In this document: piece by piece, positions 12,408-34,669 of the stretch | Numbering within the stretch: the stretch's first letter is position 1 | Layout: each line of letters begins with the position of its first letter | Assembly (NCBI RefSeq): GCF_000225505.1 | Contig: NZ_BACI01000060.1 | Coordinates: forward strand, 62,001-126,000 | Length of the DNA stretch: 64,000 bases | Source of the DNA: Gordonia alkanivorans NBRC 16433 | GTDB lineage: Bacteria; Actinomycetota; Actinomycetes; Mycobacteriales; Mycobacteriaceae | Direction of reading: 5' to 3' | The notes under the pieces: model-generated | What the model was told of the DNA's origin: nothing | The model's database searches: none | What the model saw: only the letters and a program-made list of their open reading frames with translations | Made by a program: the position numbers and the translations under genes

Positions 12408-12472
12408 AATGCCGCCCCTGGTGGATTTCGGCGGCTGACCTCGGGGCGGGCGGCAGAAGTACCCTGGCGACC

Positions 12473-12802: not shown

Positions 12803-12824
12803 CCCGGGGGCTACCCTGGACGGC

Positions 12825-13196: not shown

Positions 13197-13247
13197 TCGC
13201 GCCCGCCGCGCGATCCTTCCCACCACACCAGAGAACCCGGGCACGCG

Positions 13248-13859: not shown

Positions 13860-13905
13860 GGAACCGAACGCGGGCGTACCTCGTGAGCCCGGCTAAGGTC
13901 GGGGA

Positions 13906-15531
13906 GTGATATCGCTGAAGCGGGGGCGTCGACGAGTCCGGGTGATCGCGGCGGGGGTGGCCGCTGTCGCCGTCGCCGGCCTGGCGGACACGGCACGGGT
14001 CGTGGCTCCCGCCGGGGCTGCGGTGCCCGAGCTGGAATGGACGTCATGTCCCGCCGTGCACGGCGTGCCGGCGAGCGTCCGGTGTGCCGCGGTCGAGGTC
14101 CCGCTGAATCACGCCAAGCCGAACGGGCCCACGATCGAGCTGTTGGTGAGCCGTGTTCCCGCACGCGATCGGGCGCAGCGCCGCGGTGTCCTGATGGGCA
14201 ACCCGGGAGGCCCCGGCGGCGACGGGATCGCGATGTTCAGCCAGTTGCGTGTGCCGGACGAGGTGCGCGATCAGTGGGATCTCGTTGCGGTGCAGCCGCG
14301 TGGGCTGGTGTCGGGCACTCCGCTCAAGTGTGACCCGATCACCGGATCGGAGCCCGAAACCTTCACCGCCGCAGGGAAACTCAATCGAGATCGGTGCGAA
14401 CGGCAAACGCCGGGTGTCGGGTCGACCCTCACCACGGAGAACACCGCACGCGACATCGAGGTGGTCCGTCGGGCGCTGGGCGAGTCCGCGATCAGCCTGT
14501 ACGGCATCTCCTACGGGACGTTGCTCTTCGCGACCTACGCGACGCTGTTCCCCCAGCGGGTGGATCGCATGGTCCTCGATTCCGGCTTCGATCCCGGCGT
14601 CGTGTGGAACGCACTCCTGGATACGCAGACCCCCGGTTACAAGGCCCGCGTCCACGCCATGATGGCCTGGATCGCCCGAAACGATCGCATCTACCATCTC
14701 GGTGCCACTCCGCTTGCCGTGTACCGGAAGTGGAGCAACCGTGTCAGCGCCGAGGCGGGCGTCCCGCCGTCTCTGGTCGCGCCACCGGCACGGGTCGGGG
14801 ACGTTCCGCCGGGGCTTCGCGCCGTCGCCGACCAGTACATCGCCGGGACCGACCTGACCGCGGATGCGCGTGCACGGTTCGAGAACTTCGTTGCGACGCT
14901 GCTGACACCCGGTTCGGTGCAGGCGAACTCGGGACTCCTGATCCTGACGCGGGCGTTTGCGCCCGATCGGAACCTCTGGCCGGTCATCGCGATGATGACG
15001 GCCGGTACCGCCCGGAAGTTCGCCGAGCCCCCACCCGCGGTTCTCGAAGCTGCGACGGTCTCACAGGACATGCAGGGGATCGTCCTGTGCAACGAGAACC
15101 AGGTGCCGGCCGACCCGTCGATGAGCCTCCCGGCGTTCATCACCGGCTACGTCACCGCCGACCCGTTCGAGGCGCCGGGATTCGTCTACCGGTCGGGGAT
15201 GGCCTGTGCGGGAGCGGCTCCGGTCACCCGCCCGATCCAGATCCGGAATCGGGGCCTCGCCGTACGGCCGTTGCAGATCCAGAGCATCGGCGATCCCCAG
15301 ACGCCGTACCGCGGAAGCCTGGTCATGCGGCGGCAGATGGACAGCCACCTGATCACCGTCGGCGGGGGAGACCACGGTCAGTTGGGCCGTGCGAACCGGC
15401 CGCTCGACGCCGCCATCGCCGAGTACCTGCGGACCGGGCGGACCGCGGTCACCCGTGTCCCGGAGGCGCCGATCACCGCACCACTGACCACGTTCCCGCC
15501 GGGTCTGTCCGCGGGTGTGGCGGTGCGGTGA
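13906..15531 (+). CDS. Secreted alpha/beta hydrolase with TAP-like C-terminal domain
   Basis: A signal peptide is present (basic start LKRGRRRVRV, hydrophobic core IAAGVAAVAVAGLA, A-rich cleavage region near residue 38). The 541-residue protein has an oxyanion segment GNPGGPGGDG, nucleophile elbow GISYG (Ser202) and a late His in GGGDHGQ, with TAP-like C-terminal sequence before it. The family includes tripeptidyl aminopeptidases and exported mycobacterial carboxylesterases/proteases. TAAGGT lies six bases before GTG 13906. It overlaps the next gene by four bases (GTGA), forming an operon with a P-loop kinase. The substrate is unknown. Confidence 0.8.
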   Translation: MISLKRGRRRVRVIAAGVAAVAVAGLADTARVVAPAGAAVPELEWTSCPAVHGVPASVRCAAVEVPLNHAKPNGPTIELLVSRVPARDRAQRRGVLMGNPGGPGGDGIAMFSQLRVPDEVRDQWDLVAVQPRGLVSGTPLKCDPITGSEPETFTAAGKLNRDRCERQTPGVGSTLTTENTARDIEVVRRALGESAISLYGISYGTLLFATYATLFPQRVDRMVLDSGFDPGVVWNALLDTQTPGYKARVHAMMAWIARNDRIYHLGATPLAVYRKWSNRVSAEAGVPPSLVAPPARVGDVPPGLRAVADQYIAGTDLTADARARFENFVATLLTPGSVQANSGLLILTRAFAPDRNLWPVIAMMTAGTARKFAEPPPAVLEAATVSQDMQGIVLCNENQVPADPSMSLPAFITGYVTADPFEAPGFVYRSGMACAGAAPVTRPIQIRNRGLAVRPLQIQSIGDPQTPYRGSLVMRRQMDSHLITVGGGDHGQLGRANRPLDAAIAEYLRTGRTAVTRVPEAPITAPLTTFPPGLSAGVAVR

Positions 15532-16088
15532 CGGCGGCCGACCGCGTCGCCCCCGAGATCGGTGCGCGGGTCGCCGAACTCGCCGGGCAGCTCGACTCGG
15601 GCATCGTCGCCATCGACGGACCGTCGGGAGCGGGCAAGTCGACGGTCGCGGATCTACTGGTCGCGCAACTGCGTGAGCGGGGCGCCGGGGTGACGCTGGT
15701 GCGCACCGACGACTTCGCCTCCTGGGACGACCCGGTCGCCTGGTGGCCCGAACTGGAAGCCGATGTGCTGCATTCCTTCGTCCGGCGATGGGACTACCGC
15801 TATCGGCCTCGGGTGTGGCGCGACGGTGTCGCGACGCCCGGGCCGCCGGTGTGGATCGAGTGGCAGCCGCTGCTGATCATCGAAGGGGTGTCGTCGGCGC
15901 GGCGTCGCATCGCCGACCGGTTGACCCACGCCCTGTGGCTCGACGGCGGAACCGAGGCCGAGCGTCTGGAGCGGGCCGTCGCACGGGACGGCGAGGGGTC
16001 GCGCGCCCACCTGCAGCAATGGCAGGAGTTCGAACGCGGCTGGTTCGCGGTCGACCGCACGCGCGAACGCTGCGTCGTACTGGACTGA
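15528..16088 (+). CDS. P-loop uridine-kinase-like protein
   Basis: The 186-residue product has Walker A GPSGAGKST near residues 26-34, a DDF acid pair (VRTDDFASW) at the position used by uridine kinase-type enzymes to bind the nucleoside, and an LIIEGVSSAR strand equivalent to Walker B. The length and DDF motif fit the small actinobacterial uridine/phosphoribulokinase-like kinases. Start GTG at 15528 overlaps the hydrolase stop codon, implying coupled translation. The true phosphoryl acceptor is not predictable. Confidence 0.72.
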   Translation: MTAADRVAPEIGARVAELAGQLDSGIVAIDGPSGAGKSTVADLLVAQLRERGAGVTLVRTDDFASWDDPVAWWPELEADVLHSFVRRWDYRYRPRVWRDGVATPGPPVWIEWQPLLIIEGVSSARRRIADRLTHALWLDGGTEAERLERAVARDGEGSRAHLQQWQEFERGWFAVDRTRERCVVLD

Positions 16089-16121
16089 TCGCTCCACCGC
16101 CGCTCGCGGTTACTGTCGGAT

Positions 16122-16862
16122 ATGGGCACCCGACGGCACTTTCGTGATCCGGGATTCCGTGACCTCGCGGAGCTCGATGCGCTGCTGATCGACTGTCGCG
16201 CATGCCCGCGGCTCGTCGAGTGGCGCGAACAGGTGGCCCGTGAGAAGCGTCGGGCGTTCGCCGACCAGGAGTACTGGGGACGGCCGGTCCCGGGCATCGG
16301 ACCGGCGGATGCGCGGTTGCTGATCGTGGGTCTCGCGCCGGCCGCCCACGGCGGCAATCGCACCGGCCGGATGTTCACCGGCGACCAGTCCGGTGACTTC
16401 CTGTTCTCCGCCATGTATCTCGCCGGCCTGGTGAGTCAGCCGCACTCGGTGTCGATGGACGACGGGCTGGAACTGTTCGACACCCGGATCACCGCGCCCG
16501 TGCACTGCGCTCCGCCGCAGAACAAACCGACGGTCGAGGAGCGGGACCGGTGCTCGCACTGGCTGCACGGTGAGCTCGAATTGCTCGCTCCGACGGCGCG
16601 ATCCGTGATCACGCTGGGCGCCTTCGGTTGGCAGTCGACGCTGCGCACGTTCGGCGCGCTCGGCTGGACGGTGCCGCGGCCGGCGCCGAAGTTCGGGCAC
16701 GGCGCGTCGACGATCCTGACCCGCGGCGACGCGGTCCTCGAGGTGTTCGGGTGCTACCACGTGAGTCAGCACAACACCTTCACCGGACGGCTGACCGTCG
16801 AGATGCTCGTGGACGTGCTGAAAGCCGCGGCGGAGTCCGCGGGGATCGTGCCGGGGGAGTGA
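16122..16862 (+). CDS. Family 5 uracil-DNA glycosylase (UdgB type, Fe-S)
   Basis: The 246-residue enzyme has an early CRACPR pair, motif A GLAPAAHGGNRTGRMFTGD, an APVHCAPPQNKP segment with a third cysteine, and motif HVSQHNTFTGRLT after GCYHVS, which supplies the fourth cysteine. These four cysteines hold the 4Fe-4S cluster of family 4/5 UDGs. Motif A with Ala instead of a catalytic Asp or Asn is the mark of UdgB, which removes uracil, hypoxanthine and other deaminated bases. ATG at 16122 lies five bases after TACTGT. It converges with gatD, four bases apart. Confidence 0.9.
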   Translation: MGTRRHFRDPGFRDLAELDALLIDCRACPRLVEWREQVAREKRRAFADQEYWGRPVPGIGPADARLLIVGLAPAAHGGNRTGRMFTGDQSGDFLFSAMYLAGLVSQPHSVSMDDGLELFDTRITAPVHCAPPQNKPTVEERDRCSHWLHGELELLAPTARSVITLGAFGWQSTLRTFGALGWTVPRPAPKFGHGASTILTRGDAVLEVFGCYHVSQHNTFTGRLTVEMLVDVLKAAAESAGIVPGE

Positions 16863-16866
16863 GTGC

Positions 16867-17589
16867 CTACCGCCGCCGGCCGGCGGCGAGGCGTTCCTTG
16901 CGCAACCGGCTGACCTCCGGGAGGTCCAGCGGCGCAAGCGATTCGACGCCCACCGCGGTCGCGAGTAGGTGGTCGGCGAGCTCCGGGTTGCGAGCCAGCG
17001 CCGGACCGTGCATGTAGGTGCCGAGCGCGCTGCCCTGCACGACGCCCTCGGTGCCGTCGCCGACGCCGTTGCCGACGCCGTGCTTCACACGTCCGAGCGG
17101 CTTGGCATCGGAGCCCAACGTTGTTCCGCCGCGGTGGTTCTCGAAGCCGGTGAGCGGCTGCGTGAGCGCGGCGAGCGTCGGTTCGGTGACCAGTTCGCCG
17201 ATGCTGCGCTTCTCCTGCGGTGCGGTGGTCAGGTCGAACAGCGAGATGCCGTCGACCCGTTCACCGGCCGAGGTCTCGTACCAGTGGCCGAGCACCTGGA
17301 TGGCCGCGCAGATCGCGAGGACCGGGCGTCCCGCCGCCGCGGCCTGCTGCAGGCCGGGGTAACGGGTCAGGTGGCGGGTGGCCAGACGCTGGGCGTAGTC
17401 CTCGGCGCCACCGAGGGTGTAGACGTCGAGGGAGTTCGGTACCGGGTCGTCGAGCGTGATGTGCACGACCTCGGCGTCGATCCCGCGCATGATGGCGCGA
17501 CGCTTGAGGACGAGGGCGTTGCCGCCGTCGCCGTAGGTGCCCATGACGTCGGGCAGGACCAGCCCGATCCGCAGCGTCGACTCGCTCAC
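16867..17589 (-). CDS. gatD: Lipid II isoglutaminyl synthase, glutamine amidotransferase subunit
   Basis: The 240-residue class I amidotransferase of the CobB/CobQ-like group has the nucleophile in LAICAAIQVLG (Cys about 94) and the catalytic His in GTYMHGP. GatD supplies ammonia from glutamine to MurT, which amidates the alpha-carboxyl of D-Glu in the lipid II stem peptide to D-iGln, needed for efficient cross-linking. Start GTG at 17589 overlaps the murT stop codon (GTGA). Order murT-gatD and position equal Rv3712-Rv3713. Confidence 0.93.
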   Translation of the reverse strand: MSESTLRIGLVLPDVMGTYGDGGNALVLKRRAIMRGIDAEVVHITLDDPVPNSLDVYTLGGAEDYAQRLATRHLTRYPGLQQAAAAGRPVLAICAAIQVLGHWYETSAGERVDGISLFDLTTAPQEKRSIGELVTEPTLAALTQPLTGFENHRGGTTLGSDAKPLGRVKHGVGNGVGDGTEGVVQGSALGTYMHGPALARNPELADHLLATAVGVESLAPLDLPEVSRLRKERLAAGRRR

Positions 17590-18887
17590 TGTTCGGCCTT
17601 TCGTGCACGTGCCGCGCGTTCCATGGCGATACCCAGATCGCGGAAGGCGGTGTAGTTGGCGAGCACCTCGACGCGTCCCGGCGGACACGAGGCGATCGCC
17701 GCCATCGGGTCGGGGATGGTGGTGTGCTCGGCGCCCGCGTAGAGCAGGCGCACCGACAGGTCGGCGGCCCGCTCGCCGGCGGCGACCACCTGCATCGTCT
17801 CGAAGGCCTCGAATCGCACGTCCCACAGCCAGGAGAGGTCCTCGCCATCGGGAACCTGTCCGTTGACCGCGATGACCAGGCCGTCGGCGTCCTGGTCGAT
17901 CATCGACAGGGCCTCCTGCCAGCCGGCCGGGTTCTTCGCGAGAAGCGTACGGACGGAGTGGTTCCCGACCTGGTGGACGCCGTAACGACCGGCGACCTCG
18001 CCGACCGTCCCGACCGCGGCGACGGCTTTGCCCGGGTCCGCGCCCATCGCGACGGCGGCGGCCACCGCCTGCGTCGCGTTACCGCGGTTGGCCCGGCCGG
18101 GGACGGCCAGGGTCAGGGGAGCGGAGAAGCCGCCGGGGCCGTAGATGTTCTCGTCGTCGAACCACCAGTCGGGCGTGGGTCGGCGGAAGTTCTCGTCTCC
18201 GGTCGACTGCCAACCGTCGCCGGACCGCACGATCGGTTCGCCGGTGCGGGGACAGCTCACCGAGTCGCCGACCCAGCCGGCGCCCGCGGCCACCCACACC
18301 ACGTCGGGCGCGTCGAAGGCGGCCGAGGTGACCAGGACGTCGTCGCAGTTCGCGACCACGGTGGTCGACGGGTGACGGGCGATGCCCTCGCGGAGCCTGC
18401 GCTCGATCAGGTTGATCTCGCCGACCCGGTCGAGCTGGTCGCGCGACAGGTTCAGCAGGACCAGCACCTCGGGATCGACCGCGTCGCTGACGTGCGGTAC
18501 GTGGAGTTCGTCGACCTCCAGCGCGCACAGTGGCGCGGTGCGGCTGAGGGTGAGGGTCGCGATGATGCCGGCGTCCATGTTGGCGCCGTCGGCCTGCGTG
18601 GCGACCTCGCCGAGCTCGGCCATCGCGGCGGCGGTCATCCGGGTGGTCGTCGACTTGCCGTTGGTGCCGGTGATGATCGCGGAGCGTTTGCCGGCGGCGA
18701 GACGACGCATGATGTCGGGATCGATCTTGGCGGCGACGAGGCCGCCGATCATCGAACCCTTGCCGCGGCCCGCGGTGCGCGATGCCCAGCGAGCCGCTGC
18801 GGCCGCGGCCAGCGCGACCGAGGTGCGGGCGGGCACACGGGTGCTCGGGCGAGATGCGGATCCGGCAGACGATGGACGGTCGGGCAT
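17586..18887 (-). CDS. murT: Lipid II isoglutaminyl synthase, Mur-ligase-like subunit
   Basis: The 433-residue protein has the Mur ligase ATP loop ITGTNGKSTTTR (about residues 75-85), the ALEVDELHV acidic motif, LLNLSRDQLDR near 165, and a C-terminal DUF1727 region (LLAKNPAGWQEAL). It activates the D-Glu carboxylate with ATP and receives ammonia from GatD. ATG at 18887 is chosen because the residues after it resemble the family and longer forms have no homologous-looking sequence. Divergent from the HSL esterase gene with 75 bases between. Confidence 0.93.
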   Translation of the reverse strand: MPDRPSSAGSASRPSTRVPARTSVALAAAAAARWASRTAGRGKGSMIGGLVAAKIDPDIMRRLAAGKRSAIITGTNGKSTTTRMTAAAMAELGEVATQADGANMDAGIIATLTLSRTAPLCALEVDELHVPHVSDAVDPEVLVLLNLSRDQLDRVGEINLIERRLREGIARHPSTTVVANCDDVLVTSAAFDAPDVVWVAAGAGWVGDSVSCPRTGEPIVRSGDGWQSTGDENFRRPTPDWWFDDENIYGPGGFSAPLTLAVPGRANRGNATQAVAAAVAMGADPGKAVAAVGTVGEVAGRYGVHQVGNHSVRTLLAKNPAGWQEALSMIDQDADGLVIAVNGQVPDGEDLSWLWDVRFEAFETMQVVAAGERAADLSVRLLYAGAEHTTIPDPMAAIASCPPGRVEVLANYTAFRDLGIAMERAARARKAEQ

Positions 18888-25072: not shown

Positions 25073-25849
25073 TCAGCGCCAGCCCAGTTCTGGTGCCACA
25101 TACTTCAGAATCGACTCGATGACGTGTGCGTTGTACTCGACCCCGAGCTGGTTGGGCACGGTCAGCAGCAGGGTGTCGGCCGCGGCGATCGCCTCGTCCT
25201 CGCGCAGCTGCTCGATGAGCTTGTCCGGCTCGTCGGCGTAACTGCGGCCGAACCGCGCCACGCTGTTGTCGATGATGCCGACCTGATCGGACTCGTCGCC
25301 ACCGCGGCCGAAGTAGGCCCGGTCGCGGTCGTCGACGAGTGCGAAGATGCTGCGGCTCACCGAGACCCGCGGTTCGTGCGGGTGGCCGGCGTCGGCCCAG
25401 GCCTTGCGGAAGCGCTGGATCTGCTCGGCCTGCAACTGGTGGAACGGGACGCCGGTGTCCTCGGTCAGCAGCGTCGACGACATCAGGTTCATGCCCTGCT
25501 GCGCAGTCCATTCGGCGGTCGCGCGGGTGCCGGCACCCCACCAGATGCGGTCGCGGAGACCGGGCGACTGCGGCTCGATGGGCAACAGTCCGGGCGGGTT
25601 CGGGAACATGGGTCGCGGGTTGGGGCGGGCGAAGCCGCCGCCCTCGATGACGCGGAGGAACACCTCGGTGTGCTGGCGGGCCATGTCGGCGTCGGTGGAA
25701 CCCTCCGGCGGAACGTAGCCGAAGTATTTGTAACCCTCGATGACCTGCTCGGGGGATCCACGGCTGATACCGAGCTGCAGACGCCCGCCGGCGATGAGGT
25801 CGGCTGCGCCGGCGTCCTCGGCCATGTACAGCGGGTTCTCATACCGCAT
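25073..25849 (-). pseudogene. LLM-class flavin-dependent oxidoreductase, 3' fragment cut by the mobile element
   Basis: The 258 codons from MRYENPLYMAEDAGAADLIAGG to ELGWR are the C-terminal three quarters of a luciferase-like F420/FMN oxidoreductase. The missing start is found at 34421-34669, which ends GTGVIDMR; joining the two restores a single protein of about 340 residues, normal for the family. The frame continues for eight codons into the element (to 25873), giving an artificial start there. Without the N-terminal barrel strands the fragment is unlikely to be active. The pair was therefore inactivated by the integration. Confidence 0.92.
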
Positions 25850-25859
25850 ATCGTGGTTG
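25845..25859. other. Left attachment site (attL) of the integrated element
   Basis: CGCAT (25845-25849) is the block shared with the right end, where the interrupted gene resumes. Inside the element follows ATCGTGGTTG; the element-side arm ATATCGTGGTTG (25848-25859) is an inverted copy, with one mismatch, of CAACCCCGATAT at 34403-34414. Integration site deduced from the split gene. Confidence 0.85.
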
Positions 25860-25887
25860 CAACGCCCGTTCACGTAAGCTTGGTTGC

Positions 25888-27324
25888 ATGGTCGAACTGG
25901 TAGCGCTGAGGAAGACGAACGAGGTGGCCGCGTACGTCCGCGCCTCCATGGACCGCAAGGGCGACCGCTGGACGGTCGATACGCAGCTGAGGAAGATCAG
26001 GGCGCTGGCCGAGGCCAAGGACTGGAACGTCGTCGAGGTCTACGAGGACAACGCGGTGTCGGCGACGAAGAAGCGCCGCGCTGGCACCCGGTGGGCCGAG
26101 ATGCTGGACGACGCCCGCGCGGGCCGGTTCTCGATGGTGGTCGCCGTGGACATGGACCGGCTCCTGCGCAGCACGAAGGACCTGAACACGCTGATCGACC
26201 TCGGTCTGCGCGTCGTCACCGTGGACGGCGAGATCGATCTCTCGACGGCGGACGGCGAGTTCCGGGCGACGATGCTCGCCGCTCTCGCCCGGTTCGAGGC
26301 GCGTCGCAAGGCCGAGCGACAGATCAGGTCGAACGAGCGCCGACGTGCCGAGGGCATCCCCACGTCCGCCTGGAAGGCGTTCGGATGGTCGAGGGAGGGT
26401 GAGCTGATCGAGGAAGAGGCCGACGCGGTTCGGCGGGCCTTCGACGCGTTCCTCGGCGAGCCGTCGCTGTCGATCCGGCGCATCCGCGAGGACCTGAACA
26501 GCGCTGGTCACCTCACCGCCCGCGGCTCGGAATTCTCCGTCGATGCCGTGCGCTACCTGCTCGCGAACCCGCTTTACTGTGGCTACATCAAGCACTACGC
26601 ATCCGGCGAGCTGTACCCGGTGCAGGGCGAGGCGTTCCCGCCCATCGTCAGCGAGCAGACGTGGCGGACCGCGGTGGCGAAGCTGGAGGACAACGTGCGG
26701 AGGTCGGCCAGGCAGGGCAACCAGCCGAAATACCTCCTGTCGACGATCGGGCTGTGCGGGAAGTGCGGTGCGACGCTCGTCTCGGGGACGAACAGCCGCA
26801 AGCAGCCGACGTATCGCTGCGGCGAGCAGTTCCACCTCACCCGCCAACGCGAGCCCGTCGATGCGATGGTCACCGAGGCAGTGCTCACCCGCCTGTCGTC
26901 GGTGGACGTGCACGACCTCGTGATGCCGCAGGAGGACGACGGGCCGGACCGCGAGGAGCTGCTGACCGAGCGGAACGCCCTGGTCGAGCGCGTAAAGGAG
27001 CTGAGCCCGCTGCTGCGCGACATCCATCAGCCGGTCCTGGAGATCACCGCGGCGATCAACGACGTGAAGGTCCGCATCGACGAGATCGACGCGGAGCTGC
27101 TCGACCGCTCGGTATCCGTGGCGGCGAAGCTGCTGGCAGACGTGGAGGAGGCGGTCGGCACCGCGGAGCGTCGCGAGGTTGTCGAGTCGAAGTGGAAGGC
27201 GTTGGACATAGACCGCCGCCGGATGCTCGTGGACGAGCTGGTGACTGTGACCATCGAGCCCATCGCGCCCGGTCACGTGAAGTTCGACCCCGACCTCATT
27301 CGCATAGAGCCGCGTCGCGACTGA
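25888..27324 (+). CDS. Large serine recombinase (site-specific integrase)
   Basis: The 478-residue protein has an N-terminal resolvase domain with the catalytic serine in YVRASMDRKGD (Ser20) and the conserved DMDRLLRS and EFRATMLAALARFE helices. These are followed by a recombinase domain (GYIKHYASGELYPV), a zinc ribbon starting CGKCG (Cys290, Cys293) and a coiled-coil region (residues about 350-440) with heptad Leu/Ile. This is the standard large serine integrase architecture of phages and integrative elements. It lies 38 bases from the left end, as usual for integrase genes beside attP. It would catalyse insertion into, and with a directionality factor excision from, the LLM gene. Confidence 0.95.
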   Translation: MVELVALRKTNEVAAYVRASMDRKGDRWTVDTQLRKIRALAEAKDWNVVEVYEDNAVSATKKRRAGTRWAEMLDDARAGRFSMVVAVDMDRLLRSTKDLNTLIDLGLRVVTVDGEIDLSTADGEFRATMLAALARFEARRKAERQIRSNERRRAEGIPTSAWKAFGWSREGELIEEEADAVRRAFDAFLGEPSLSIRRIREDLNSAGHLTARGSEFSVDAVRYLLANPLYCGYIKHYASGELYPVQGEAFPPIVSEQTWRTAVAKLEDNVRRSARQGNQPKYLLSTIGLCGKCGATLVSGTNSRKQPTYRCGEQFHLTRQREPVDAMVTEAVLTRLSSVDVHDLVMPQEDDGPDREELLTERNALVERVKELSPLLRDIHQPVLEITAAINDVKVRIDEIDAELLDRSVSVAAKLLADVEEAVGTAERREVVESKWKALDIDRRRMLVDELVTVTIEPIAPGHVKFDPDLIRIEPRRD

Positions 27325-27328
27325 CTCA

Positions 27329-27365
27329 TGAGTCAACTCGTCATTGCAATGGTGAGTCGACTCGT
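27329..27365. repeat. Two direct copies of TGAGTCRACTCGT
   Basis: TGAGTCAACTCGT (27329-27341) and TGAGTCGACTCGT (27353-27365) are 24 bases apart, just after the integrase stop. The core GAGTCGACTC is palindromic. Two turns of spacing suggests cooperative binding of a regulator upstream of the small coupled ORFs, perhaps the HTH protein at 27718. The rest of the 181-base gap to 27506 shows no gene. Confidence 0.6.
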
Positions 27366-27505
27366 GGGAGAGTGGTTGCAGACAAGAAGATCCCACCGGG
27401 GCCGCGACTTAGAAGCGCGGGGTTCTGCTCCCGGATGAGTAGCCGGTCAAACAGCCCAACTACCGTGGCGGGGAACCGGAAGATACTCATATCTGAGGAC
27501 TTCCG

Positions 27506-27718
27506 ATGTCTGTCGTTATCGACGTTCCCCGCGCATCCGCGCTTGACTGCCCTGCTCTCGATCAGGACTCGTCTCCCGTTCCGCATGCTGATGGGCTCGA
27601 TCCCGTCATCGCCGCCGCCCGCGCCGCCGGTCGCCGAGCCGGTGAGCGCCTGGCACTCACTCCGCTGACGCCGCGACAGCGCGCCGCCGTCGCCGCCGTG
27701 ATGGGCGGTGGTCGCTGA
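27506..27718 (+). CDS. Small uncharacterised element protein, 70 aa
   Basis: I do not recognise a family. The product has a Pro/Ser-rich first half and an Ala/Arg-rich helix at the end (IAAARAAGRRAGERLALTPLTPRQRAAVAAVM). A ribosome site GAGGA lies eight bases before ATG 27506, and its TGA overlaps the ATG of the next gene (TGATG), so it is likely translated. Analogous short proteins precede replication genes on actinobacterial plasmids and integrative elements. Confidence 0.55.
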   Translation: MSVVIDVPRASALDCPALDQDSSPVPHADGLDPVIAAARAAGRRAGERLALTPLTPRQRAAVAAVMGGGR

Positions 27719-27966
27719 TGAGCGCGAACTCCGCCGCCTTCGATCACCTGACCAGCTTCCGCTGGCGACAGGGCGACCCGTCCCTCGCCGATGGCGAGGC
27801 CCAGCTCTACGACCTCGGCGTGCTCCGCTCCGTGCTGGAGGAGGCCGTCGAGATCGCCGTCGCCGACGCCCGCGCCGACGGGGTGACCTGGGCCAGGATC
27901 GGCGACGCCCTCGGCGTCACGCATCAGGCTGTCATCAAGCGCTACGGCCGGGGCGGTGGTCGCTGA
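27718..27966 (+). CDS. Small helix-turn-helix protein of the element
   Basis: The 82-residue protein ends with VTWARIGDALGVTHQAVIKRYG, a clear helix-turn-helix of the kind common in small actinobacterial DNA-binding proteins. The N-terminal half (EEAVEIAVADARADG) is helical. It is translationally coupled to the 70-residue protein upstream. It could regulate the rep/mob genes or act as an excision factor for the serine integrase; neither is shown. Confidence 0.7.
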   Translation: MSANSAAFDHLTSFRWRQGDPSLADGEAQLYDLGVLRSVLEEAVEIAVADARADGVTWARIGDALGVTHQAVIKRYGRGGGR

Positions 27967-28128
27967 TGCACGCCGACGCACGCAACCTCAGCACCGCACC
28001 CGCCGACCTGACCCCGCCCGGAGGGCCTGGCCTGGCACCCGCCGAAGGCGGGCTGCCCATCGCCGTGATGACGGTCCGCAGCCGTGCTTCGCACTCCAAG
28101 AGTTTCGGGGGCCTCATTCGTTCCTACG

Positions 28129-28265
28129 GGCGCGGCAAGGGCTTGTCGATTGCCGCGCCTTGCAACAACGCGCCTGGTCAGAAGCCGATTCCGTCTTCGC
28201 TGCGTCGCGTCGCCTCGCGGGTTCATTTGAGGTCTCATTTGGGGGTCAATACGGGGTCATTTAGG
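28129..28265. other. Candidate replication origin of the element (hairpin plus phased repeats)
   Basis: The 342-base stretch between the HTH gene and rep (27967-28308) holds no convincing gene. It contains a 10-bp hairpin, GGCGCGGCAA (28129-28138) and TTGCCGCGCC (28150-28159), with an 11-base loop. Nearer to rep there are four degenerate TCATTTG-like units starting near 28222, 28233, 28244 and 28256, spaced 11-12 bases, one helical turn. A hairpin whose loop is nicked and adjacent iterons that bind Rep form the usual plan of rolling-circle origins for HUH Reps. Function is inferred. Confidence 0.5.
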
Positions 28266-28308
28266 CGCCGCACCCCCTCTGCGGCCCTCCACGCCGCCTG
28301 CGACGGGG

Positions 28309-29730
28309 GTGGTCGCCGTGGCTAAGCAGGAGAACAACCCGACGAGCATCGGGCTCACGCAGTACCTCGATCCGTCGTACTGGACCTGGGCTGCCGAGGA
28401 CCCGAACGGGGCCGCGCTGCTCGAGCAGGGAGCCGGGGCGATCCTCGCCTACGTCGCGCAGCGGCTCGAGGCCATCGGCTGCGAGGTCATCGAGGCCTAC
28501 GGAATCGTGCACGACAAGGATGAGCGCGAGGTCTGGAGCGACACGGAGAAGGCTCTGGTGGTCGAGCCGAAGCCCGATCACCTGCACGCGGTCATCAAGT
28601 TCGCCAGCCGTGCGAAGAGCGCGCCGCTGGATCGGCTCGCGTTCGGCATCGGCGTCGAGCCCCAGTACGTCGAGAAGCCGGGCCGCGGTCGGTACGCCTT
28701 CGACAACATGCTGTCGTACCTGACTCACGTGAAGTATGCGGACAAGCATCAGTACGCGCCGTCGGAGGTCGCCACGGTGCGCGGGCCGGACTACCTCGGG
28801 ATCGACGCCCAGCGCCGGGAGACCTGGCTCAAGGGGCGCGCCCACGTGAAGAAGAAGGTCGTCGCGGAGAACTTCGAGGACATGCGGGAGCGGGTGCTGC
28901 AGGGCGAAATCACGCGGGATCAGATCATGCTCACGGACGAACTGTTCGACATCTACTCGCGGCATCAGCGGGAGATCGACGACGCGCTGTCGGCCTACGG
29001 CCAGCGCCGCGCGTACCGGGCGGCCGCGAAGCTGCGCGCCGGTGCCTTCTCGACGCACGTGGTGTTCGTCCACGGGGATGCCGGGATCGGCAAGACTCGG
29101 TTCGCAACGGATTTCATCACCGAGGCGATTAGCGCGGCCAATGCACATGGCGAGCGGTGGCAGGTCTACCGTGCCGCGACGGGGAACCCATTGGATGACT
29201 GGCGGGGCGAGGAGGTGCTGCTGCTGGACGATCTGCGGGCCTCGGCGATGGACGCGAACGATTGGCTGCTGCTGCTCGATCCGTATAACGCCTCGCCTGC
29301 GAAGGCTCGGTACAAGAACAAGGGCGAGGTGGCTCCGCGCCTCATCGTGATTACGGCGACGATCGAGCCGGTCGAGTTCTTCTACTACGCCCGCCAGAAG
29401 GGCAACGTGGACGAGGCGCTGGACCAGTTCATCCGCCGCCTGGCGTCGGTCGTGAAGGTCTACCGCGCCGACGACATCAACCGCTACCTCGTGCAGCACA
29501 TCGGGAAGATCGAGCCCTACGAGTGGCACCAGTGCAGCATCCCGACCGCCGCGCACACGCCCGGCATGTACGGCAACGCGTACCACCAGAACGCCGGGTC
29601 GCGGGAACTGACGTACGGTCCGGAGACCTCGGCGGAACACGACGCGGACGGTGCGGTCGCGGAGCTGCTCAGCGGGCTCGCGGTGCGAAGTCCGGACGTG
29701 CCGCTGGCGCTGATCGAAGGTGCCGCATGA
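28309..29730 (+). CDS. Rolling-circle replication initiator with HUH endonuclease and SF3 helicase domains (CRESS/pCRESS type)
   Basis: The 473-residue protein has the Rep_2-type endonuclease motifs in order: motif I region AYGIVHDKDE, motif II DHLHAVIKF (His91, His93) and motif III YLTHVKYADKHQY (from Tyr137). A superfamily 3 helicase follows, with Walker A HGDAGIGKT (Lys262), Walker B VLLLDDLR near 304-311 and motif C-like LIVITATIEP. This two-domain plan is shared by certain bacterial plasmid Reps and by circoviruses and geminiviruses. GTG at 28309 is used; GTG 28318 is an alternative. It overlaps mobC by four bases (ATGA). It should nick the origin, attach covalently to the 5' end and unwind. 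Confidence 0.88.
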   Translation: MVAVAKQENNPTSIGLTQYLDPSYWTWAAEDPNGAALLEQGAGAILAYVAQRLEAIGCEVIEAYGIVHDKDEREVWSDTEKALVVEPKPDHLHAVIKFASRAKSAPLDRLAFGIGVEPQYVEKPGRGRYAFDNMLSYLTHVKYADKHQYAPSEVATVRGPDYLGIDAQRRETWLKGRAHVKKKVVAENFEDMRERVLQGEITRDQIMLTDELFDIYSRHQREIDDALSAYGQRRAYRAAAKLRAGAFSTHVVFVHGDAGIGKTRFATDFITEAISAANAHGERWQVYRAATGNPLDDWRGEEVLLLDDLRASAMDANDWLLLLDPYNASPAKARYKNKGEVAPRLIVITATIEPVEFFYYARQKGNVDEALDQFIRRLASVVKVYRADDINRYLVQHIGKIEPYEWHQCSIPTAAHTPGMYGNAYHQNAGSRELTYGPETSAEHDADGAVAELLSGLAVRSPDVPLALIEGAA

Positions 29731-30317
29731 GCACCGATCAGCATTCGCTCTTCCAGGGGGTCGAGGGGGCCGGAGGCCCCTCGCAAGCAGGGCTGGAGGA
29801 CACGAGCGTCAGCGATGTGTCCGACAGGCCTACTGCTTGCCACTCTGGCGTACAGGTGGAGCAGCAGACCGACTCCCAGGTGAACACCGGTCGGGCTGAT
29901 GCGGAGGCTGTGCGTCAGAGTCACGGCGGCGCGAAGCGTCGTCGTGGGGGCCGCGCGAAGCTCGATACCGACTTCGGGGAGGAGACGCTCGCGGCGCTTC
30001 GCACTCGTGCGAAGCGGCTCGGGCTGGCTCCGAGCACGTGGGTACGGACCGTCGTACGCGATGCCCTCCACGCCTCCCGCTCGGAGGAGTTGGACGCCGC
30101 CGTGGCGGCGCACCTGCTCGGGGTCGAGGCGCGTGTGCAGGCGTCGGCGGACGCTCGTGAGCTGGCTGCCCAGGTGCGCCCGCTGGCGATCAACGTCAAC
30201 GACTTGGATCGCCGCGCGCGCGCCGGTGAGGCGGTGGCGCTGTCGTCGGAGGTGCCCGAGCTGATCGAGCTGCTGCGCGAGGTCCGCGCCTTGCTCGGGG
30301 ATCGGACGGCCGCATGA
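29727..30317 (+). CDS. MobC-like relaxosome accessory protein
   Basis: The 196-residue protein has a disordered, Gln/Ser-rich first 65 residues, a basic patch (AKRRRGGRAKL) and then a ribbon-helix-helix-like segment (LAALRTRAKRLGLAPSTWVRTVVRDAL). A C-terminal helical part with PLAINVNDLDRRARAG follows; that sequence resembles the MobC motif NLNQIARR. MobC proteins bind oriT and help the relaxase melt it. ATG 29727 overlaps rep, and its end overlaps mobA (ATGA). An inverted repeat GAGGGG/CCCCTC at 29763-29782 lies in its start and might belong to oriT. Confidence 0.72.
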   Translation: MSTDQHSLFQGVEGAGGPSQAGLEDTSVSDVSDRPTACHSGVQVEQQTDSQVNTGRADAEAVRQSHGGAKRRRGGRAKLDTDFGEETLAALRTRAKRLGLAPSTWVRTVVRDALHASRSEELDAAVAAHLLGVEARVQASADARELAAQVRPLAINVNDLDRRARAGEAVALSSEVPELIELLREVRALLGDRTAA

Positions 30318-31600
30318 GCACCACCCACTACAGCCCGAGCACCAGCGCCGCCGACACCGAGCGCTATATCCGCGGGAAGGAGGACGAGCGGGGCGTCGCG
30401 ATCACGTGCGAAGTGCCGGGAGGCCCTGGCGCATTCTCGGCGCGCGCACGGGCGCTCACGCAGAACACCACGCGCGAGGTCGAGGCGCTGCATTACCGGC
30501 AGTCTTTCAGCGACGAGGAGTTCGACCCGAAGAACCCGGAGCACGTGCAGCGGGTGAACGATCTCGGCTATCAGCTCGCGAAGAGGATGCACCCCGACTC
30601 GGACTGCCTCGTGGTCAGTCACGTGGATGGCCGGGGCAGAAAGCCGCATAACCACATCTTGGTCATCAATCACAGCAACCGGACCGGAAAGGCGCTCTCG
30701 GACTACCGGACGTTCCACGATCGCAAGGCCGGGAACCAGCGGGGCGTGCAGTCGGCGAACGACGAGCTGATGCGAGAGCACGGGCTCTCGGTCGTGAAGC
30801 GGCTGGAGCACGCGCCGAAGGACTGGGAGCTGCGCCGCGAGGACTTCGCGGAGGGCGGGCTCGACCGCGAGATGGGTGACCGGATGAGCGCCGCACTGGC
30901 CGACCCCCGCGTGGTGGACAAGGCCGGTCTCGAAGCGGTGATCGAGGAGCAGAACCAGCAGCTCGACGACGCCGGGGAACGTGTGCCGAGGATGCGGCTG
31001 CACAGCCCCGTCAGCAAGAAGGGCAAGCGCGCCGGGCAGGAGACCTGGACGCTCTACATCGAGGACCGCCGCGGCGAGTCCGGCCGCGCCGATCGCCGCA
31101 AACGCGCGAGCGCGCTCTCGGCGGACTTCACCCCGGAGGGCGCGCAGGCGTTCTTCGACTACCACCAGCAGCAGAAGGAGCAGGAACATGAGCGCAGCGC
31201 TCGACAGGCTGAAGCAGCAGAACGGGCCCGTGCAGTCGCCGCAGCCGCTCGGCAGTCCGGAGACGATGGAGCTGTTGACCTCGATCCTCGCCGCCGTCGA
31301 GGCGCAGAATACGAGGATTGCCACGCTGACCGAGCAGCAGAAGAAGCTCGCGGGGTTCGTGAAGGTCATGGACGAGGAGACGACGAGGCGGCTGGAGCGG
31401 ATCACGACCCCGGCGTCGACCTCCTCGCCCTCCAGCGACGTGTCCGCGAGGATCGCGAGTATCGAGAGCAGGCAGAACGAGATCGCGAGCACGCTCGGCG
31501 AGTTCGCGCAGAGTCTCAACGGCGAGAGCTTGAACGCCGCGTCGCGAACCTTGGTCGCGGAGGCGCAGAAGAATCGCGCGGCTACGGCCTCGGCGATTGA
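30314..31600 (+). CDS. MobA relaxase (MOBP-like)
   Basis: The 428-residue protein has the relaxase histidine triad in HVDGRGRKPHNHILVIN (His103, His112, His114), preceded by the YGxQLAKRMHPDSDCLVVSH-type strand and an N-terminal Tyr-containing region suited to nicking. The C-terminal 140 residues are an Arg/Glu/Ala-rich coil of low complexity; this part is overlapped out of phase by mobB (31188-31600). The relaxase cuts one strand at oriT and pilots it into a recipient through a helper's secretion system. Its ATG overlaps the mobC stop. Confidence 0.85.
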   Translation: MSTTHYSPSTSAADTERYIRGKEDERGVAITCEVPGGPGAFSARARALTQNTTREVEALHYRQSFSDEEFDPKNPEHVQRVNDLGYQLAKRMHPDSDCLVVSHVDGRGRKPHNHILVINHSNRTGKALSDYRTFHDRKAGNQRGVQSANDELMREHGLSVVKRLEHAPKDWELRREDFAEGGLDREMGDRMSAALADPRVVDKAGLEAVIEEQNQQLDDAGERVPRMRLHSPVSKKGKRAGQETWTLYIEDRRGESGRADRRKRASALSADFTPEGAQAFFDYHQQQKEQEHERSARQAEAAERARAVAAAARQSGDDGAVDLDPRRRRGAEYEDCHADRAAEEARGVREGHGRGDDEAAGADHDPGVDLLALQRRVREDREYREQAERDREHARRVRAESQRRELERRVANLGRGGAEESRGYGLGD

Positions 31601-32087
31601 GGGTCTGAAGGTGCAGGCCACAACGAACCAGAAGCTTGTGAGCCAGGTCGGCGGCGCGGTGCAGCGGATCGAGAAGCGTACTGAGGAGCGGGTCGAGAAG
31701 GCCGTCGAGCAGGTCGCCGGGGAGGCCTCGGCCACGATGACCGCGAACCTCGACGCCTCGAACGAGCGCGCCGAGCGGATGATGGCGGCGACGGCGAAGC
31801 TCGAAGCGCGTCAGCTCTGGTCGGCCGCCGCTGCGATGTGCCTCGCCCTGCTGCCGGTGGTCGTGGTCGTCGCCGGGCTCTGGATGGGCATCGCCGGTCT
31901 CATCACGGGCGCTCAGTGGGCGCTCGACGTGGACGGGCGCATCTGGCTCGGCATCGGGCGCTGGCTCGTGGTCTCCGTGGGTCTCGCCGGGGCCGGCTAC
32001 GGGCTCTTCGCGTCCGTCCGCTCGGCCGCCGGTCTCGTGGAGACGTGGAAAGGTCGCGGGGTGCCGAAGTGGCCGAGGTGGCGATGA
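31188..32087 (+). CDS. MobB-like membrane-anchored mobilization protein, overlapping mobA
   Basis: The 299-residue protein starts at ATG 31188 behind AAGGAGCAGGA, 413 bases before mobA ends, in another frame. Residues 20-200 are helical and coiled-coil (ILAAVEAQNTRIATLTEQQKK, then IASIESRQNEIASTLGEF). Two transmembrane helices follow (AAMCLALLPVVVVVAGLWM and LGIGRWLVVSVGLAGAGYG). MobB proteins of mobilizable plasmids likewise sit inside mobA, are coiled-coil membrane proteins and help the relaxase dock at the coupling protein. Clean amphipathic periodicity in this frame shows it is really translated. Confidence 0.78.
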   Translation: MSAALDRLKQQNGPVQSPQPLGSPETMELLTSILAAVEAQNTRIATLTEQQKKLAGFVKVMDEETTRRLERITTPASTSSPSSDVSARIASIESRQNEIASTLGEFAQSLNGESLNAASRTLVAEAQKNRAATASAIEGLKVQATTNQKLVSQVGGAVQRIEKRTEERVEKAVEQVAGEASATMTANLDASNERAERMMAATAKLEARQLWSAAAAMCLALLPVVVVVAGLWMGIAGLITGAQWALDVDGRIWLGIGRWLVVSVGLAGAGYGLFASVRSAAGLVETWKGRGVPKWPRWR

Positions 32088-32105
32088 TGGCTGGATCCGC
32101 TCGAG

Positions 32106-32417
32106 CTACCGGTTCCGATCAGCGGTCGAAGGATTTTCGCAGCAGCCGGTCCTGCGGCCTCGGTGCCGCCGCCCTAACCTGACGAGCATCCCCGCCGTGA
32201 CGGCCATCACGACGGCGATCCCGGCACCGATGATCCAGGGGTTACCGAGGAGCCCACCGACGCCCGCGAGTGCTCCGCCCGCCGCGATGAGCGGCAGGCC
32301 GCAACAGAGCAGCAACGGAAGCGCGCAGCATGCCAGCAAGAGCAGTCCGGTCCCTGCAGCGACGACGGGACCGGCGCGCCGTTCGTCGCGGTCCTGATCG
32401 GCGCTCGTCGTCTGCAC
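32106..32417 (-). CDS. Small MerF/MerT-like mercury uptake membrane protein
   Basis: The 103-residue protein has two transmembrane helices (GTGLLLLACCALPLLLCCGLP and WIIGAGIAVVMAVTAGMLV), with vicinal cysteine pairs ACC and LCC in the first helix and GCC in the cytosolic tail. MerF and related transporters use exactly such Cys pairs to hand Hg(II) from outside to the tail and then to MerA. It is 40 bases downstream of merA on the same strand. It is longer than classical MerF by an N-terminal hydrophilic stretch and a basic tail. Start GTG at 32417. Confidence 0.72.
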   Translation of the reverse strand: MQTTSADQDRDERRAGPVVAAGTGLLLLACCALPLLLCCGLPLIAAGGALAGVGGLLGNPWIIGAGIAVVMAVTAGMLVRLGRRHRGRRTGCCENPSTADRNR

Positions 32418-32457
32418 CTCTTCAGGATGAGATCTCCCCGATTGCCTGCGCTGCCGG

Positions 32458-33879
32458 TCATGCGCAGCACGACAGCAGCGACGGGTCGGTGGTGAAGGCC
32501 TTCGCGGCGATCCGGATGCCCTCGGCCATCGTCAGGTAGGGAGCCCAGGCGTCGGCGATCTCGGCGACGGTCTTGCCGAGCACGTGGACACCGGCGGCGG
32601 CGAGCTCTCCGGCGTCCTTGGCGACGGCGGTCAGGCCGAGGATCTCGTTCGTGTCGGCGTTCACGACGATCTTGATGAACCCGCGGGTGTCCCGGTTGAC
32701 CAGCGCGCGGGGCACGTGGTGCAGCGGCAGGACGCGGCAATCGCAGCGGATCCCCGCAGCAAGCACTTCCTTCTCGGTCATCCCGACCGCTCCGATCGCG
32801 GGCCCGGTGAACGTCACCCGCGGCAGGCGGGAATAGTCGACGGCACGATCGGCGTCGGCGAACGCGTTCTCGGCGACGAGGGTGCCGTGGTGGGCGGCGA
32901 CGTAGACGAACTCGGGGTGCCCGGTCACGTCGCCCGCGGCCCAGATCCGCGGGTTCGAGGACCGCAGCCGGTCGGAGACGACCACCTCGCCGGAGTCCCC
33001 GGTCTTCACCCCGACCGCATCGAGGTTCAGGCCATCGGTGACGGGACGGCGTCCGAGGGCGACGAGCACCTGCTCGGCGCGGAACTCCTGCGAGTCGCCG
33101 GACACGTCGGCGGTCACGACGGCCTCGCCTCCCGTGCCGCGGGAGACCCGGGTGGGCACCACGCGGCGGACGACGCGGATGCCTTCGTCGGCGAACGCCT
33201 CCTGAAGCGCCTTGGACACCTCCGGCTCCTCCTTCGAGGCGAGCCGGGACCGCACCAGCAGCGTGACCTGCGAGCCGAGGCGAGCGAACAGCTGCGCCTG
33301 CTCCAGGGCGACGTAGCCGCCGCCGAGCACCAGCAACGACTCAGGAACCTCAGCGAGTTCCATTGCCGTGGTCGAGGTCAGGTACCCGGTCTCCTCCAGG
33401 CCGTCGATCGGCGGAGCCCACGGGCGAGAACCAGTCGCGACCAGGAAGTGGTCGGCCTCGATGGTCTCGACCGTCCCGTCGCCGGCGATGATCTCCAGTA
33501 CCGGGGCGTCTGGGCCGCCGGCGAACGATGCATCGCCGCGGCGGACCTGCCAGCCGTAGGAGTCGGCGACGTCGGCGTACTTCTCGCCGCGCAGCGACTC
33601 GACCAGCGCCTGCTTCCCGGCGATCAGCGCAGGCATGTCCACTGTCTCAGCCGTCGCCGCGATCCCCGGGAACCGGCCTGAAGCGTCGGCGGCGACGTGA
33701 CGGGTGTCGGCAGCGGCGATGAGGGCCTTCGACGGCACGCAGCCGGTGTTCACGCAGGTGCCGCCGAGCGTCCCGCGCTCGATCATCACCACCGACTTGC
33801 CGAGCGTGGTCGCACGGATGGCGGCGGCGAATGCTCCGCCTCCGGATCCGATGATGGCGAGGTCGTACTTGGTAGGCAT
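32458..33879 (-). CDS. merA: Mercuric reductase
   Basis: The 473-residue flavoprotein has the FAD-binding start DLAIIGSGGGAFAAAI, redox-active GTCVNTGCVPSK, NAD(P)H loop LLVLGGGYVALEQAQLF, FAD motif RIWAAGDVTG, the dimer-interface LTAVAKDAGELAAAGVHVLG and the diagnostic C-terminal cysteine pair LLSCCA. It reduces Hg(II) to volatile Hg(0) with NADPH. It lacks the N-terminal MerP-like metal-binding domain found in many MerA proteins. ATG 33879 has AGGAG nine bases upstream, and its promoter is the MerR operator at 33922-33953. Confidence 0.95.
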   Translation of the reverse strand: MPTKYDLAIIGSGGGAFAAAIRATTLGKSVVMIERGTLGGTCVNTGCVPSKALIAAADTRHVAADASGRFPGIAATAETVDMPALIAGKQALVESLRGEKYADVADSYGWQVRRGDASFAGGPDAPVLEIIAGDGTVETIEADHFLVATGSRPWAPPIDGLEETGYLTSTTAMELAEVPESLLVLGGGYVALEQAQLFARLGSQVTLLVRSRLASKEEPEVSKALQEAFADEGIRVVRRVVPTRVSRGTGGEAVVTADVSGDSQEFRAEQVLVALGRRPVTDGLNLDAVGVKTGDSGEVVVSDRLRSSNPRIWAAGDVTGHPEFVYVAAHHGTLVAENAFADADRAVDYSRLPRVTFTGPAIGAVGMTEKEVLAAGIRCDCRVLPLHHVPRALVNRDTRGFIKIVVNADTNEILGLTAVAKDAGELAAAGVHVLGKTVAEIADAWAPYLTMAEGIRIAAKAFTTDPSLLSCCA

Positions 33880-33921
33880 CGCTGCTCCTGTCAGTCCTTG
33901 GCGTTCTGCTCTGTCTCAGCC

Positions 33922-33953
33922 ATACTGGACCTTCCAGTGCAGGGGAAGGTCAA
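33922..33953 (-). promoter_or_regulatory. MerR-type promoter/operator for merA-merF
   Basis: On the minus strand: -35 TTGACC (33953-33948) and -10 CAGTAT (33927-33922) separated by 20 bases. This over-long spacer is typical of MerR-activated promoters. The spacer holds an 8-bp dyad, GACCTTCC (33928-33935) and GGAAGGTC (33944-33951). MerR bound there would untwist the promoter when Hg(II) is present. Confidence 0.9.
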
Positions 33954-33984
33954 GCCTGCTCCTGCCGAACGATCGGAGGCCGCG

Positions 33985-34374
33985 ATGCGCATCGGAGAAC
34001 TCGCCGAACGCGCGGGCACCACGGCGAAGACGCTCCGCTTCTACGAGGGGCAGGGGCTGCTTCCGCCGGCCGAGCGCACGCAGTCCGGCTATCGCGACTA
34101 CGCACCCGAGACGGTCGCCCGGATCGACTTCGTCCACCGCGGCCAGGCCGCGGGCCTCACCCTCGCCCAGATCCGCCAGATCCTCGACATCCGCGACGGC
34201 GGCCATGCGCCCTGCGAGCACGTGCGCGACCTGCTTGACGTGCGCCTCGCTGAGATCGAGCAGCAGATCGCGCAGCTCTCCGTGCTGCGCGACACTATCG
34301 CGGACCTCAGACAGGACGCCGCGCACCCGGACCCTGAAACGTGCAGCACCGATCAAGTGTGTAGGTACTTGTAG
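33985..34374 (+). CDS. merR: Mercury-responsive MerR regulator
   Basis: The 129-residue protein has an N-terminal MerR winged helix (RIGELAERAGTTAKTLRFYEGQGLLPP) and a dimerisation helix. Cys77, Cys120 and Cys126 match the three mercury ligands of classical MerR (82, 117, 126) in spacing. It is divergent from merA across 105 bases that contain the operator. ATG 33985 has GGAGG 7 bases upstream. It is the last gene before the right end of the element. Confidence 0.92.
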   Translation: MRIGELAERAGTTAKTLRFYEGQGLLPPAERTQSGYRDYAPETVARIDFVHRGQAAGLTLAQIRQILDIRDGGHAPCEHVRDLLDVRLAEIEQQIAQLSVLRDTIADLRQDAAHPDPETCSTDQVCRYL

Positions 34375-34402
34375 ACGACGGTAGCCAATGACTCCAACGC
34401 TA

Positions 34403-34426
34403 CAACCCCGATATGCGCTAGCGCAT
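34403..34426. other. Right attachment site (attR) of the integrated element
   Basis: CAACCCCGATATGCGCTAG is followed by CGCAT (34422-34426), where the interrupted gene's 5' part begins on the minus strand. Joining the two element ends recreates a perfect palindrome around GATATGCGCTAGCGCATATC, the likely core of attP. The element end places a TAG directly after the truncated coding part. Confidence 0.82.
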
Positions 34427-34669
34427 GTCGATGACACCGGTGCCGATCTCGATGCGGCTGGTCTTGGCGCCGATCGCCGACAGTAGCGGGAACGGCGACG
34501 CCAGCTGCCGCGCGAAGTGATGCACCCGGAAGTACGCGCCGTCGGCGCCCAGTTCCTCGGCCGCCACGGCGAGGTCGATCGACTGCAGCAATGTGTCGGC
34601 GGCCGTGCGGACCTGCGATCCGGGCGACTCCGACCAGTGACCGAACGACAGGAAACCGATCTTCTTCAT
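34421..34669 (-). pseudogene. LLM-class flavin-dependent oxidoreductase, 5' fragment
   Basis: ATG 34669 opens MKKIGFLSFGHWSESPGSQ, the N-terminus of the same luciferase-like enzyme whose remainder is at 25073-25849. RVHHFARQLASPFPLL and RIEIGTGVIDMR are family motifs of the first barrel strands. After 83 codons the frame runs into the element and stops at once with TAG (34418-34420). A small truncated peptide could be made but would not fold as a TIM barrel. It lies 67 bases downstream of a TetR gene on the same strand. Confidence 0.92.

Follow-up and report, generated by a model that had tools for sequence, protein, structure and literature searches.

An actinobacterial integrative mobilizable element with a pCRESS-like Rep, a large serine integrase and apparently orientation-blind insertion at a TA core

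Integrated plasmids of the pCRESS4-8 groups occupy specific chromosomal sites and encode a replication initiator (Rep) that combines a HUH endonuclease, a YLxH motif III and a superfamily 3 (SF3) helicase (Kazlauskas et al. 2019, PMC6668415; here and below, papers given by PMC number are cited from excerpts). According to that work, 97.5% of the pCRESS Reps in groups other than 7 and 9 sit in site-specifically integrated elements; the YLxH signature marks pCRESS4-8 and is also kept in helicase-less Reps of the pE194/pMV158 type. Among streptococcal integrative mobilizable elements (IMEs), PF01719-helicase proteins are listed as putative relaxases (PMC5704250). For serine integrases, attP and attB pair equally well in parallel and antiparallel, and normally just the parallel form is efficiently joined (PMC3783163). 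Two core bases set the orientation, and engineered palindromic cores abolish its control (PMC3556126, PMC10661055): A118 mutants with symmetric cores yielded, in vitro, 52.5-64.5% deletion against 35.5-47.5% inversion (PMC3556126), and for Bxb1 a palindromic GC core is stated, with reference to earlier work, to yield equal amounts of both products (PMC10661055). The subject here is an 8,579-bp element of Gordonia alkanivorans NBRC 16433, located within a 64,000-nucleotide stretch of contig NZ_BACI01000060.1 (positions 62,001 to 126,000, forward strand; "the window").

This element is very probably an IME that consists of a small plasmid of the pCRESS YLxH type, a large serine integrase and a slot for exchangeable resistance genes, and that inserts either way round. 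Its integrase probably represents a natural family of large serine integrases without orientation control, in which a TA core and a near-symmetric attP lead to two-way integration that is tolerated across seven orders. Judged by sequence comparison, the element has defined boundaries with a TA crossover, its copies occupy a common site in both orientations, Rep and cargo have been swapped, and spread between orders has been recent. Relative to the pCRESS4-8 plasmids as excerpted (PMC6668415), with which it shares the Rep architecture, the YLxH motif and site-specific integration, it adds the large serine integrase, a relaxase, metal cargo, two-way insertion and exchange of Rep types; some of its copies may be in the table of that paper.

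The element extends from 25842 to 34420, both TA copies counted, and interrupts a luciferase-like monooxygenase (LLM) gene on the minus strand. Scripted joining of the host flanks at TA gives a single open LLM frame (...IGTGVIDMR/YENPLYMAEDA..., the slash marking the junction). An earlier reading made from the letters alone (the sequence-only reading) had placed the element between two halves of one host gene at 25850..34426, which proves right to within ~10 bp. The genes follow in the order integrase, 70-aa open reading frame (ORF), 82-aa helix-turn-helix (HTH) protein, Rep, mobC-like, mobA, mobB-like, merF-like, merA and merR-family regulator. Domain assignments for the integrase, Rep, relaxase, MerA and regulator are solid; the names MobC, MobB and MerF are provisional and derive from position and composition.

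25073..25841, minus strand: C-terminal part of the interrupted host LLM (luciferase-like flavin) gene, in frame with the other half once the flanks are joined at TA
25842..25843: left crossover dinucleotide TA, with host and element bases differing on either side
25844..25868: left attP arm, an inverted repeat of the right arm (18/25 positions match)
25888..27324, plus strand: large serine integrase, 478 aa (PF00239, PF07508, phrog_95)
27506..27718, plus strand: small ORF of 70 aa (from translation), overlapping the next gene by 1 base
27718..27966, plus strand: 82-aa HTH protein (phrog_686, 4.7e-7), candidate recombination directionality factor or Rep regulator
28121..28159, plus strand: candidate replication origin, TTCCTACG followed by a hairpin with a 10-bp stem and CTTGTCGAT in the loop (fold z -3.40)
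28223..28267, plus strand: three iteron-like TCATTT repeats upstream of rep, in a region that differs in copies with a type II Rep
28309..29730, plus strand: Rep, HUH endonuclease (HLHAV, YLTH) and SF3 helicase (PF01719, PF00910)
29727..30317, plus strand: mobC-like relaxosome protein, by position and a sub-threshold NikA-like match
30314..31600, plus strand: mobA relaxase (PF03432)
31188..32087, plus strand: mobB-like membrane protein, an open frame with hydrophobic segments overlapping mobA
32106..32417, minus strand: small membrane protein with Cys pairs, putatively MerF/MerT-like
32458..33879, minus strand: merA mercuric reductase (TIGR02053)
33985..34374, plus strand: merR-family regulator (PF13411, PF09278)
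34394..34418: right attP arm, by comparison with the left arm
34419..34420: right crossover dinucleotide TA, by junction comparison
34421..34669, minus strand: N-terminal part of the interrupted LLM gene, 83 codons, whose frame rejoins the C-terminal part

At 34418-34420, with the element oriented as it is here, the first element base after TA creates a TAG stop, and the N-terminal half of LLM ends at the junction.

The protein encoded at one end of the element is, as the sequence-only reading had it, a serine integrase. It matches PF00239 (7.9e-24), PF07508 (2.1e-13) and phrog_95 (8.1e-90), and a zinc ribbon match falls below the cut-off (18.2 vs 25.3 bits). With resolvase catalytic and recombinase domains both above cut-off, it belongs to the large serine integrases, and it aligns with the TP901-1 integrase around the Ser that we take to be catalytic. 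Domain layout, a 2-bp core and a symmetric attP are common to this integrase and those of the A118, Bxb1 and TP901-1 type. The native cores of Bxb1 and TP901-1 are non-palindromic. The native core of A118 is GG, and two-way joining in A118 and Bxb1 has been reported for altered cores, whereas the TA found here is native.

When 84,980 species, each represented by a single genome, were scanned for this integrase, 51 distinct loci were found in 29 genera, belonging to 15 families and 7 orders; their integrases are 91-100% identical over the best segment. The analysis took in 60 loci besides the window; removal of the duplicates L008, L009, L023, L024 and L025 and of L010, which has no integrase gene, left 55 rows. 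An LLM half flanks the element in 49 of these. L046, L053 and L073 are contig ends without a visible flank, and the remaining three (L022, L068 and L074) are inserted elsewhere.

In all 48 copies with a readable left end, TA lies 46 bases (43 copies) or 45 bases (5 copies) before the start of the integrase gene; this check of left ends is the only independent check of TA. In 19 of 36 copies, host and element disagree at the base on either side of TA, which localizes the crossover to the dinucleotide itself. The attP is a near-symmetric inverted repeat: over 19 distinct attP sequences its arms match at a mean of 16.7 of 25 positions (range 11-22), compared with 6.5 (sd 2.2) after shuffling. The attB is not clearly symmetric (6.4 of 20 positions, no shuffled comparison having been made for attB) and consists of codons of a conserved LLM motif, VIDMR/YENP, which can explain the broad host range. 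After flank joining, the LLM frame is open across this motif in 36 of the 37 copies with both LLM junctions placed, the exception being L072, whose boundary was mis-set by the script; the joined frame of L049 is short for other reasons. The intact attB pattern is present in 56 of 101 relatives and in none of the carriers G000, G019, G043, G046, G077 and G062.

These 37 copies sit at one LLM codon, 24 in the orientation of the window and 13 reversed; in L033, which the end-finding script left open, the right TA was read separately. Among the 43 full-length integrase copies with readable orientation, the division is 27 vs 16. On the integrase tree of these 43, orientation changes at least 13 times, compared with 12.6 (sd 1.4) for shuffled labels (224 of 300 shuffles gave 13 or fewer). 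Thus, there is no sign that orientation is inherited. Nearly identical copies occur in opposite orientations (window/L026, 99.94%; L037/L041, 99.87%; L052/L071, 99.86%; L049/L050, 99.70%), and four near-identical groups hold both orientations with identical element ends. A non-palindromic core and a single orientation are usual, although not strictly defining, for large serine integrases; here the core is TA and the copies divide 24 to 13. The presence of both orientations suggests that the integrase is indifferent to direction. In the proposed mechanism, it would join the attP of a circular form to attB in the chromosomal LLM gene, and the element would land either way round because TA reads the same on both strands and attP is close to symmetric. 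Excision would require a directionality factor, for which the 82-aa HTH protein, encoded in 49 of the 55 rows, is a candidate.

Three copies lie outside LLM. TA marks both breakpoints of L022 and L068 and the single visible end of L074; the flank of L022 reads as an ethanolamine ammonia-lyase region. In Kocuria carniphila (L029), the left TA joins what reads as an FG-GAP-like repeat gene in place of the N-terminal half of LLM, and this half was not found in a search of the Kocuria genome (best match 36%). The left end of L029 resembles a deletion that ends exactly at TA and was perhaps made by the integrase; recombination at pseudo-sites may cause such adjacent deletions. In L070, L075 and L076 (Schaalia, Actinomyces oris), both LLM halves stand together (8591-14585, 8864-18357 and 8864-18045, respectively) beside a copy with truncated integrase plus one more LLM half, an arrangement that resembles restoration of the target gene.

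The Rep matches PF00910 (1.7e-8) and PF01719 (1.2e-7), in agreement with the HUH motifs and SF3 helicase recognized from the letters alone. Residues H91, H93, Y137, L138, H140, G261 and K262, within the HLHAV, YLTH and Walker A motifs, are invariant in 14 aligned Reps of the family. Since a HUH motif, a YLxH motif III and an SF3 Walker A are found in a single protein, the motifs place this Rep with the YLxH plasmid Reps (pCRESS4-8). Identity to the Rep of pCPa, which gives the cluster its name, is 28% over 330 positions (3e-23). The predicted Rep structure was poor (mean pLDDT 49.7), supports nothing and was not used.

At least four types of Rep occupy the rep slot across the 55 rows. Type I is present in 36 and type II, 32-35% identical to type I, in 4; PF01719 is recognized in these two types only. 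A type III Rep of ~746 aa was read in L021, L022, L036, L049, L051 and L064, in part in L057, and is expected in L050 by likeness. Type IV, in L069, matches no Pfam model. In L036, L049, L050 and L021, the replacement extends to mobC and the beginning of mobA, which shows that the entire rep-mob stretch is exchangeable. TTCCTACG and a hairpin precede rep in types I and II. The stem differs by type and the loop CTTGYCGAT is kept, which fits an origin that travels with its Rep. Motif and loop are present in 35 of the 36 type I rows (33 by script, L073 and L075 by reading; deleted in L076), in 4/4 of type II, and in 0/15 rows with neither type, several of which are contig ends or truncated. This hairpin, which folds on the strand of the window, is a candidate double-strand origin, at which Rep would replicate the excised circle; replication of this mobilizable integrated plasmid is probably of the rolling-circle type.

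Of the three mobilization genes named in the sequence-only reading, mobA stands: its product matches PF03432 (5.1e-13), the relaxase is largely complete in 44 of the 55 rows, and its catalytic region is 32% identical over 101 aa to the relaxase of the Lactococcus cremoris plasmid pUC073G (CP068704), typed MOBP by PLSDB. For mobC there is a sub-threshold NikA-like match only (0.046). MobB, encoded in 49 of the 55 rows, has no specific library match and is named from position and hydrophobic segments. Plasmid pUC073G shows the same order of rep, mobC and relaxase, and its Rep is 36.9% identical over 81%; it differs in being a free 4-kb plasmid with neither integrase nor resistance cargo, and its mobC is not similar. 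No conjugation-channel families were among the matches of the nine element proteins scanned. Having its own integrase and relaxase and no recognized conjugation apparatus, the element fits the definition of an IME, and MobC, MobA and MobB would transfer it through the conjugation machinery of another element.

The cargo lies between mobB and the right end. MerA is assigned by TIGR02053 (6.8e-168; 559 bits vs a cut-off of 454). The merR gene of the sequence-only reading is confirmed as a merR-family regulator, for which the CadR/PbrR model gives a higher score than the MerR model, neither reaching its cut-off, and the merF of that reading has no specific library match and is named from position, hydrophobic segments and Cys pairs. 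The DNA from merA to the regulator is 92-93% identical to Micrococcus and Corynebacterium plasmids, so the mer cargo is a common actinobacterial cassette. The same gene order with other cargo, for which a search had been proposed from the sequence alone, was found in many genomes. In the 49 copies with mobB (searched for 5 kb after mobB where the right end was not placed), the cargo is merA in 18 (partial in L055), cmtR-cadA in 25, cmtR without cadA in 1 and none of these in 5. The cmtR-only copy bears what reads as an efflux-type ORF. Of the five others, L032 and L061 carry an apparent MFS-type transporter, L040 has a short stretch, L053 ends and L054 holds other sequence. In L040 (Brachybacterium, near 9166) and L054 (Brevibacterium, near 16457), an ORF read as chorismate-mutase-like starts the slot.

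Several copies have evidently moved recently. Over its full length, the window copy is 99.94% identical to L028 (Tessaracoccus) and L026 (Gulosibacter), 99.80% to L031 (Microbacterium) and 99.34% to L027 (Georgenia), and the LLM parts of these four hosts are, as protein, just 49-79% identical to those of the window, which indicates recent transfer between orders.

Some observations weigh against an active, orientation-blind IME. The HTH protein is no more than a candidate for the directionality factor. The draft host genome yielded no protein of the conjugation families PF12846 and PF02534, and any helper would therefore need to be supplied from outside. The excision product, taken as the joined-ends junction of the circle, was not seen with exact patterns in the assembly of the window, the L029 Kocuria genome or viral contigs. 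The 24:13 ratio leans to one side (P 0.099). Since the element-end script itself looked for TA, finding it in the 36 usable copies does not count as independent evidence. Thirty-nine element-free relatives also have no exact attB pattern, so that its absence from the carriers says little by itself. In the reversed Gulosibacter copy (L026), rep is split in two frames (12422-13839) by decay or sequencing error.

It is conceivable, but unlikely, that integration is one-way and that reversed copies arose by later inversion in place, either through the integrase and a directionality factor acting on attL x attR or through homologous recombination between the inverted ends. The ends are indeed inverted repeats, and a TA core would also permit attL x attR inversion, symmetric cores of A118 having given inversion products (PMC3556126). 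However, the matching ends are ~25 bp with 11-22 of 25 matches, short for homologous recombination, and the integrase version still needs a palindromic core, so that it alters the timing of the flip and not the principle. Two-way integration by an integrase without orientation control is preferred, and the integrated form may in addition flip in place with a directionality factor. A serine transposase with loose TA targets would account for L022, L068 and L074, which lie elsewhere and also at TA where an end is visible, but the 37 two-junction copies at one LLM codon position leave this explanation hardly credible.

Rep itself might be the actual transfer relaxase and the MobA protein an accessory, as proposed for the streptococcal elements with PF01719-helicase proteins (PMC5704250). 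Those elements are likewise IMEs with a Rep-like HUH-helicase protein, which in the excerpted account is the putative relaxase, whereas the present element has a separate PF03432 relaxase, largely complete in most rows and with a catalytic region matching that of pUC073G, a MOBP plasmid in which Rep and relaxase stand together. A relaxase role for Rep is accordingly improbable. That the element is a decaying genomic island whose mobility has been lost would agree with the condition of some relatives: G046 (L010) is truncated, with the integrase gene, hth and the start of rep lost and the C-terminal half of LLM adjoining the rep remnant, int is truncated in L070, L075 and L076 and split in L072, and rep is split in L026. 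Yet the listed genes of the window copy are open, and its identity to the Tessaracoccus and Gulosibacter copies implies recent movement; decay is very improbable for this copy. A phage origin was also considered and rejected: no structural genes were found among nine proteins by profile scan or among five in PHROGs, and viral contigs held no relatives.

The sequence-only reading described an IME that combines a pCRESS-like Rep with a serine integrase and mer cargo, and this is borne out; its observation was confirmed and its interpretation was supported in part, being mostly right. A literature search, with most subscription papers outside its reach, found no name for the element and no natural palindromic core. 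The integrated pCRESS-Rep part is not new, since integrated plasmids with HUH-SF3 Reps were described in 2019 (PMC6668415), and PF01719-helicase IMEs are also on record (PMC5704250). Novelty had thereby been put on the wrong point: what looks new is orientation-blind insertion at a palindromic TA core together with the swapping of Rep types within one integrase backbone, neither of which was mentioned there. The lasting interest lies in two-way integration and module swapping, not in the mere union of parts. A natural palindromic-core family with dozens of sequenced copies offers a ready test of the purpose of orientation control by serine integrases, and a virus-like HUH-SF3 Rep is exchanged as a module within a single backbone. 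The element is also a compact vehicle: between distant actinobacteria it has recently moved mercury resistance or, depending on the copy, cadmium-type resistance genes.

Though widespread, the element is not common, given the few matches in samples of the phylum and order. Among 396 genomes drawn from the phylum, only its own genome matched in an integrase search at 1e-150; in the order, 8 of 397 genomes matched at 1e-80, including its own and one at just 45% identity. No integrase match at 1e-60, and hence no free plasmid form, was found among 72,556 plasmid records. In the relatives search, three of the other 100 genomes contain the Rep at 94-98% identity, a fourth contains it truncated, and a fifth, G068, is marginal (8.6e-4); in the order sample it also occurs in G133 (94%) and marginally in G193. 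Two genomes of the genus of the window, G043 and G019, are identical over 1.9 kb to the loci L045 (Gordonia araii) and L058 (G. spumicola), respectively. The integrase occurs at 94-95% in G062, G341 and G368 as well, where the window-type Rep was not found. In another genome of the same genus (L020), an integrase relative 41-45% identical, the nearest seen outside the element family, adjoins what reads as a different plasmid-type replicase.

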